From Salinirussus salinus (lineage in GTDB: Archaea; Halobacteriota; Halobacteria; Halobacteriales; Haloarculaceae), in NCBI RefSeq assembly GCF_009831455.1, contig NZ_WOWO01000003.1, positions 186,001 to 250,000 of the forward strand: 64,000 nucleotides of DNA, in the 5' to 3' direction. Under the pieces are notes generated by a model. The model was not told where the DNA came from. It ran no database searches and worked only from the letters and a program-made list of their open reading frames with translations. A program made the translations under genes and the position numbers. Below, in pieces: positions 20,337-40,903 of the stretch. Positions within the stretch are counted from its first letter, which is position 1. The number at the start of each line of letters is the position of its first letter.

Positions 20337-20575
20337 GGGCGCGCGCTGTCGCGCGTGTTCTCGCGCGACAGCCGCCGTGCGAGGGATGAGCGAACGCGGG
20401 AGCGAAGCGACCGGGTGAGCGAATCGGCTGGGGAGGTGAGTGGTGTCGGGTGGGTCTGAAAGGGGCGAGGCGTTCGACGAAGGAAGGCGACGCAAGCACC
20501 GCAGTGAGCGAAGCGAGCGAGGAGCACAGCGAGCCTCCCGAGTCGAACGCCTCGGGGCTTTCATTCTGTCCCGAG
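20337..20575 (+). repeat. Intergenic modular repeat, complete copy A (modules 1 and 2)
   Basis: Fills most of the 430-bp gap between the carboxylase gene and hisB. Module 1 is a perfect hairpin, CTGTCGCGCG (20346-20355) with CGCGCGACAG (20362-20371), followed by GCCGTGCGAGGGATGAG. Module 2 begins GTGGGTCTGAAAGGGGC and has outer arms GAAAG (20458-20462) and CTTTC (20558-20562), then GAGGCGTTCGAC (20467-20478) and GTCGAACGCCTC (20542-20553), a perfect 12-bp pair. The interior is rich in GCGAGCGAAGCGAGC-type palindromes. No coding frame is credible. The hisB promoter (CCAAATAG, 20621-20628) lies downstream. Confidence 0.75.
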
Positions 20576-22937: not shown

Positions 22938-23004
22938 GGCTGTGTGTGAGGCGGCGAGGGTAATGGTGTTGGCGGCGCTGGTGTTCGGGGAGTCATTGTC
23001 TCGC

Positions 23005-23310
23005 AGGGATAGAAAGCCCCGAGGCGTTGCGGTCGCGCGCCTCGCTGCGCGCTTCCATCGCTCACCGCGTTCGCTCTGTCCAGTGCTTTCGTCGGCGTGC
23101 TTCCCGCAACGCCTCGCCCCTTTCAGTCCCACCCGTGCTCGCGGCTTCGCCGCTCGCTGCCCCGTTGCGCTCGCTTCGCTCGCGCAACGCACGCCACACA
23201 CCCCCCCAGCCGACTGCGCTCCTCGTCGCTCGCGATGCTCGCTCCTGCGGTGCTCATCCCTCGCACAGTATCGTCGCGACACGTGGCCGCGACAGCGCGC
23301 GCCAGAGAAG
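23005..23310 (-). repeat. Intergenic modular repeat, complete copy B, minus orientation
   Basis: Occupies most of the 460-bp gap between the ferredoxin gene and hel308. On the minus strand module 1 comes first (23303 to 23253, arms GTCGCG and CGCGAC), then a spacer containing TTGCGC and GCGCAA arms, then module 2: GGGACTGAAAGGGGC with arms GAGGCGTTGCGG and CCGCAACGCCTC (23021-23032 and 23104-23115). The 12-bp arms differ from copy A at the last four to five bases, yet remain fully complementary. No coding frame is credible. Confidence 0.75.
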
Positions 23311-40409: not shown

Positions 40410-40690
40410 GAACAGCGAGAAAGCCCCCGCTCGCTCGGCTGTTGCGACTCGCTGCGGTCTCTGCTCACGGGCAGCGGGGCGGTTTCACCGCCCCGACGTC
40501 GCGGCGCGGAGCGCCGCGCACGGCCCGTTCGCATGGTTCGAGGGACCTGCGGTCCCCCGCTACTCGCCTCCCGGTGGTCGGCTGCGGTCCTTACGTCGTC
40601 TCACACGCCGAGCGCGAGGTCGGCAGAGCCGACCTTGTCACACCGTGGCGACGAAGCCGCCACGCGAGCGGCCCCTTTCAGTCCCACCCG
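40410..40690 (-). repeat. Intergenic modular repeat, copy C, module 2 on minus strand
   Basis: On the minus strand it begins GGGTGGGACTGAAAGGGGC (40689-40671) and ends GGGGCTTTCTCGCTGTTC (40427-40410). The arms next to the conserved ends are CCGCTCGC and GCGAGCGG (40427-40434 with 40664-40671), unlike those of copies A and B but again complementary. The 230-nt interior has at least four small perfect hairpins. Confidence 0.7.
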
Positions 40691-40792
40691 ACCTGAACAG
40701 TCACACCGGGCGCACGCTGTCGCGGCGTCGGCCGCGACAACACCGTGTGAGGGGTGAGGAGCGCAGTGAGCCCCCGAGTCGAACAGGTCGGG
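40687..40792 (+). repeat. Intergenic modular repeat, copy C, module 1 enclosed by its own arms
   Basis: The outer arms CCCGACCTG (40687-40695) and CAGGTCGGG (40784-40792) are a perfect 9-bp pair. Inside is the module 1 hairpin, TGTCGCGGC (40718-40726) with GCCGCGACA (40731-40739), then CACCGTGTGAGGGGTGAG, the same order as at 20362-20390. The last arm is followed by GGCCTTCTTGTTGGAC, like the tail of module 2. Its left edge abuts the module 2 copy on the other strand. Confidence 0.7.
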
Positions 40793-40903
40793 GCCTTCTT
40801 GTTGGACTGGAGCCTGATTCTGCTAAAACAACCACTGTTAACAACCCCTGTTGCTCCGACGAGACGAACGCTTATGACGTGACACCGTGTAAATGCACAC
40901 GAG

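Follow-up and report, generated by a model that had tools for sequence, protein, structure and literature searches.

What maintains base pairing in an intergenic repeat whose hairpin arms change sequence from copy to copy while staying complementary? The question is raised by three copies in the window analyzed here, a stretch of 64,000 nucleotides of Salinirussus salinus DNA. The original prediction described a family with pairing ends (GAAAG with CTTTC) and proposed that the pairing is under selection, as RNA or cruciform DNA, the function not being evident. The best answer we can offer to the question of function is a mobile, transposase-free repeat on which selection acts in the form of a folded single strand.

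Architecture of the repeat

All three copies were found in the window with the described ends and with arms that are complementary within a copy and different between copies. Copy 1 lies on the plus strand, where CTGAAAGGGGC starts at 20456 and GGGGCTTTC ends at 20562, and has the arms GAGGCGTTCGAC/GTCGAACGCCTC. Its hairpin unit (20448-20562) is composed of GGGTGGG-T-CTGAAAGGGGC, a 13-bp arm, the tip, the returning arm and GGGGCTTTC, and is matched by the covariance model of the family at 20448-20570 with 134.3 bits. Copy 2 runs on the minus strand from 23126 to 23012 with the arms GAGGCGTTGCGG/CCGCAACGCCTC, in a hairpin unit of 23012-23134 (model match 23004-23134, 109.8 bits). Copy 3, also on the minus strand, is a 263-nt version running from 40681 to 40419 with the arms CCGCTCGC/GCGAGCGG; its hairpin unit (40419-40689) is enlarged by nested small hairpins and gives fragment matches to the model. 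Compared with dinucleotide shuffles, the copies had folding z-scores of -3.8 to -5.5, copies 1 and 2 being folded as RNA and as DNA and copy 3 as RNA only; 1 of 200 shuffles equalled the fold of copy 2 as RNA. Each copy sits between divergent genes, as called by a gene caller written for this analysis: 20220(-)/20651(+), 22937(-)/23398(+) and 40321(-)/40904(+), respectively. A scan of both strands of the window against Rfam gave no match at the gathering threshold.

The hairpin is formed by the CTGAAAGGGGC strand only and is ∼90-330 nt long. Its 5-bp base (GAAAG/CTTTC) is followed by a GGG/GGG internal loop and a stem of 12-13 bp with variable sequence, above which come tandem G-A pairs, a mid stem and a tip, for which a GNA triloop is the usual cap. 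Small nested hairpins often enlarge the tip and the mid stem, copy 3 being an example. Small double-hairpin inserts (e.g. CGAGGCGCC..GGCGCCTCGGCCCGTGCGAACGGGCC..GGCCCGTGAGCAG) were seen within several hairpins (window 40419-40681 and four loci elsewhere) and also inside the second module described below, as if themselves mobile. There is in addition a second hairpin type with an equal base and an interior like TTCACTTCAGTCGTCTCAGCGACCCCTATCC...GGATATGTCGCTGAG, found at seven loci and in genomes of genus g27.

The hairpin treated as the unit in the original prediction is real but is usually half of a larger one, in which either two hairpins are set back to back and flanked by inverted ends, or a second module precedes one hairpin. 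In Haloarcula, the order of a complete unit is AACAGCCA-GAAAGCCCC-[hairpin A, reversed]-GCCCCTTTCAGTCCCACCC-(∼20-nt center)-GGGTGGGACTGAAAGGGGC-[hairpin B]-GGGGCTTTC-TGGCTGTT. Hairpin pairs have inverted ends of 14-17 bp, and in those of S. salinus the two end motifs are 34 bp apart. Many single hairpins are deletion products that lack their partner, with a joint CGGGY-GGGGCTTTC that recurs at eight loci, and others follow a second conserved module ending GGCTGGGGAGGTGTGTGG. Each of the three window sites has this second module, whole or degraded. Ahead of copy 1 it occupies 20337-20443 on the plus strand (GGGCGCGCGCTGTCGCG...GCGAGGGATGAGCGA...GGCTGGGGAGGTGAGTGG), and in front of copy 2 a version with extra small hairpins occupies approximately 23135-23303 on the minus strand. 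Before copy 3, at approximately 40705-40798 on the minus strand, the remains of a partner hairpin (the GAAGGCCCC end) are fused to part of a similar module, and the model gives a weak match at 40698-40803 (E 1). The module ending GGCTGGGGAGGTGTGTGG, itself a hairpin module, precedes many single hairpins in several haloarchaeal families, at nine further loci among others. The outer parts of the unit (GGGGCTTTCTGGCTG plus ∼40-75 nt) also occur in tandem with no intervening hairpin, at five loci.

Spread and covariation of the family

The 3.37-Mb genome of S. salinus contains 43 exact occurrences of CTGAAAGGGGC and none of a reversed-pattern control, and the covariance model finds 44 copies. The exact two-ended pattern was present in 186 of 391 sampled Halobacteria genomes, representing 56 of 86 genera, with no control matches in any genome. 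Chance is therefore excluded as the origin of the family. Covariance model searches of haloarchaeal genomes, as the original prediction had suggested, returned from 0 to at least about 150 copies per genome (at least 148 in G281, 101 in G300, 93 in G231 and 90 in G006; 0-2 in several relatives) and also recovered copies in genomes missed by the exact pattern. Two Halorubrum-like genomes (g20) that appeared copy-free by the exact pattern were wrongly so classed, having 90 and 52 copies by the model. Copy number differs strongly among congeners; in genus g6, for example, some genomes have 2 and 0 copies and others 10-13.

Among named genomes the repeat is nearly limited to haloarchaea. Chance probably accounts for the 15-mer matches scattered among bacteria, and probably also for 16 exact 15-mer matches in the IMG/VR viral collection, which score poorly with the model. 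We found no account of the repeat in the open literature, searched by sequence (CTGAAAGGGGC and GACGCAAGCACCGCA) and by description. Probably few other interspersed repeats in haloarchaea are as widespread.

For the alignment, 58 diverse copies were gathered by means of their ends, which makes the basal stem invariant in it by construction. It has 30 consensus pairs; 95% of the cells are paired, and 20 of the 30 pairs show two-sided change. The covariation score was 0.521, compared with 0.143 for shuffled and 0.054-0.077 for slid alignments. The basal stem itself is altered with compensation (CAAAG/CTTTG and CGAAG/CTTCG) in copies of Halorubrum-like genomes found by the model alone. In a set of 213 copies with 154 distinct 12-nt arms, 10.7 of the 12 positions of an arm matched its partner, compared with 6.0 of 12 for the arms of other copies. 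Pairing is thus maintained by compensatory change, as had been proposed.

Uncompensated divergence of orthologous arms would speak against selection on the structure. In orthologous copies that keep the same hairpin, 16 changed arm pairs were two-sided with both states Watson-Crick, more than in each one-sided class (7 G-T and 6 A-C), and the remainder comprised 6 two-sided changes not both Watson-Crick and 1 other; these comparisons are mutually non-independent. Complementary substitution accounts for only part of the difference between arms, however, because whole hairpins and concentric hairpin layers are also exchanged between copies.

Mobility, strand specificity and genomic position

Two intergenic sites were followed across 32 Haloarcula genomes. 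At both, most species with alignable flanks have a short empty spacer; the unit is present in a few, with outer parts in common and hairpins that differ. At other sites, different hairpins lie within orthologous flanks that are 80-95% identical, and 18 ortholog comparisons gave different hairpins. Such differences at one site could come from ordinary recombination rather than from a dedicated mechanism. In a single case of inversion, the whole pair in genome G115 is reversed relative to G084 and G154 and the outer flanks are unmoved. Hairpin loss recurs at CGGGY/GGGGCTTTC, leaving orphan ends. Copies with equal outer 8 bp and different inner layers are common, and in most of them both arms are still complementary; exchange therefore follows hairpin layers. 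One filled site (L228) holds a chimera with non-complementary arms, as expected from recombination between inverted hairpins.

The strand that folds can be read from the mismatches and the tips. On the CTGAAAGGGGC strand, stem mismatches sum to 117 G-T and 34 A-C, tandem G-A pairs are conserved, and the tip form stem-GA-stem-NNN-stem-GA-stem is seen 133 times among 212 copies, compared with 2 for the complementary form. GNA loops make up 94 of these 133 tandem-GA triloop tips. The G-T excess and the one-strand GA/GNA tips indicate that the selected fold is that of one strand and not a symmetric cruciform. We prefer single-stranded DNA to RNA as the form in which this strand acts, for three reasons. 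GNA loops on G-C stems form extraordinarily stable DNA mini-hairpins (PMC4686876); a promoter-like A/T run lies within 70 nt before the hairpin in 2.8% of copies, compared with 24% before gene starts; and divergent genes flank 19 of 43 classified S. salinus copies, the three of the window included. The choice is a matter of judgement, as tandem G-A and G-T(U) pairs stabilize RNA as well. Of the proposal of selected pairing in RNA or cruciform DNA, the selected pairing stands, but the evidence favors a mobile element acting through one strand, probably as single-stranded DNA, over an RNA or a two-strand cruciform.

We therefore suggest, with a probability of roughly 55%, that the repeat family, which extends across the haloarchaea, is mobile, non-coding and transposase-free, resembles REPINs and the PATEs and SMRs of Haloquadratum in its way of life, and works as a single-stranded DNA hairpin that a predicted enzyme moves. 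Replication or excision would make a locus single-stranded, allowing the CTGAAAGGGGC strand to fold; the folded strand would be recognized by a protein encoded elsewhere, which would insert or copy the hairpin. Arm complementarity would be kept if only copies that still fold are propagated, and recombination between copies would exchange hairpins or hairpin layers at a fixed site. If this is true, the recognizing protein and the swapping of hairpins at fixed sites become testable. The Y1 transposase (PF01797), the obvious candidate driver, was rejected, as no match to it was found in four high-copy genomes (G000, which is S. salinus, G231, G026 and G311).

An RNA function is less likely. In this explanation, which we hold to be improbable, the CTGAAAGGGGC strand of a structured non-coding RNA family is transcribed, its fold binds a protein or regulates neighbors, and the family spreads as an RNA-coded module. 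Strong covariation, G-U pairs on one strand and tandem sheared G-A pairs, a known RNA motif, are all consistent with it, and either strand folds under RNA parameters (z of -3.8 to -5.5). However, promoter-like runs are scarce, flanking transcripts do not read the folding strand of copies between divergent genes, copy number differs greatly among congeners, the tips favor GNA triloops, a hallmark of DNA, over GNRA, and the window has no Rfam match at the gathering threshold. Covariation of this strength is usually counted as proof of a functional RNA; its occurrence here in apparent mobile DNA is a caution for covariation-based RNA discovery.

There is also a small chance that the structure is not selected at all, the copies being old duplicates whose arms are kept complementary by template switching between hairpin arms (quasi-palindrome correction). 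This process would account for two-sided changes and for the concentric joint replacement of both arms, and hairpin loss between short repeats would suit replication slippage. It is weakened by the conservation of the GGG/GGG loop and the tandem G-A pairs, since correction should remove mismatches, and it offers no reason for the one-strand excess of G-T (117:34) or for the GNA/GA tips (133:2).

By the same gene calls, almost all copies, which occur in both orientations, are intergenic. Most hairpin ends are found 83-108 bp ahead of a start codon or 28-75 bp past a facing stop codon. There is also a strong enrichment of an outer CTAG over background, its usual place being 43-50 bp ahead of a start codon or exactly on the stop codon of a neighbor. 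These positions may reflect targeting or may only be the safe places in compact spacers. Beneficial host elements regulating genes or shaping the chromosome (a transcription boundary, a bidirectional terminator or a replication-restart hairpin) would occupy just such promoter and terminator edges, but such edges may simply be where a compact intergenic region is safe to occupy, most congeners have empty sites and several genomes have no copy; this explanation is held to be very doubtful.

The CTAG at the outer ends is only suggestive of a target-site duplication. It lies ∼31-73 nt beyond GGGGCTTTC in 3-nt steps, with 45 of 53 unique flanks at 1 mod 3, and the intervening stretch has a codon-like phase (64 reverse stops compared with 122 and 134). 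Step and phase are real, but a gene in the outer flank was rejected as the peptides have no conservation.

Comparison with known systems

With the REPIN/REP-BIME elements mobilized by RAYT Y1 transposases, the mobile hairpin repeat proposed here shares an intergenic location, many copies, paired inverted palindromic units, strand-specific hairpins and a copy number that varies between relatives. It differs in being archaeal, in hairpins of ∼100 nt or more rather than 20-40 bp, in stems that vary widely within one genome and in the lack of a Y1 transposase in the four high-copy genomes. REP sequences are defined by a GTAG or CGTC tag beside the hairpin (PMC3733652), whereas the invariant base here is CTGAAAGGGGC/GGGGCTTTC. 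Of the features of a RAYT-driven REPIN, the paired, inverted, intergenic, multi-copy units are thus present, and the tag and the Y1 transposase are absent.

MITEs and foldback elements are likewise short, non-coding and intergenic with inverted ends (AACAGCCAGAAAGCCCC in Haloarcula), but the interior of the haloarchaeal repeat holds two covarying hairpins that are independent of each other. A parent transposon with such ends was not found, and no copy at the loci read has a transposase gene between the ends. The hairpins have no cassette gene at the loci read, unlike integron attC sites, to which, as to tRNA-like 3' ends, the likeness is by analogy only. A resemblance of GGGACTGAAAG to CRISPR repeats was dropped, as no arrays were seen.

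A diverged copy is present in an intergenic region of HRPV-2 (L319:1071-1195, 40.3 bits, E 4.9e-6), the single viral case, with the same fold architecture on the deposited strand. The record lists the virus in Alphapleolipovirus, and HRPV-2 packages single-stranded DNA. A further stretch resembling the tip of the HRPV-2 copy is shared by HRPV-2 and HRPV-6 (L319/L320:928-953), the match in HRPV-6 being short. It is conceivable, but doubtful, that the repeat is a new class of archaeal mobile DNA, propagated and selected as a folded single strand by a putative enzyme, with hairpin exchange at fixed sites and an evolutionary link to the hairpins of single-stranded DNA pleolipoviruses such as HRPV-2. 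In hairpin origins of rolling-circle replication (e.g. pleolipovirus SNJ2, PMC13107129), as in the repeat, structure rather than sequence is conserved; the repeat, however, is dispersed in chromosomes, is much larger and has no rep gene nearby.

Compared by description, the PATEs and SMRs of Haloquadratum walsbyi come closest in way of life; the portions of the account consulted present them as transposase-free mobile repeats (PMC3119063). There, PATEs have near-terminal palindromes, lack terminal inverted repeats and are related to IS605-type ends, whereas haloarchaeal hairpin pairs carry inverted ends of 14-17 bp and so fall outside the PATEs so described. A covarying 100-nt hairpin is absent from these descriptions of PATEs and SMRs, which sets the repeat apart by description and not by sequence. 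SMR-A, as presented in the same portions, has terminal inverted repeats unrelated to known transposons (PMC3119063), and the haloarchaeal repeat resembles it in its inverted ends and its site polymorphism.
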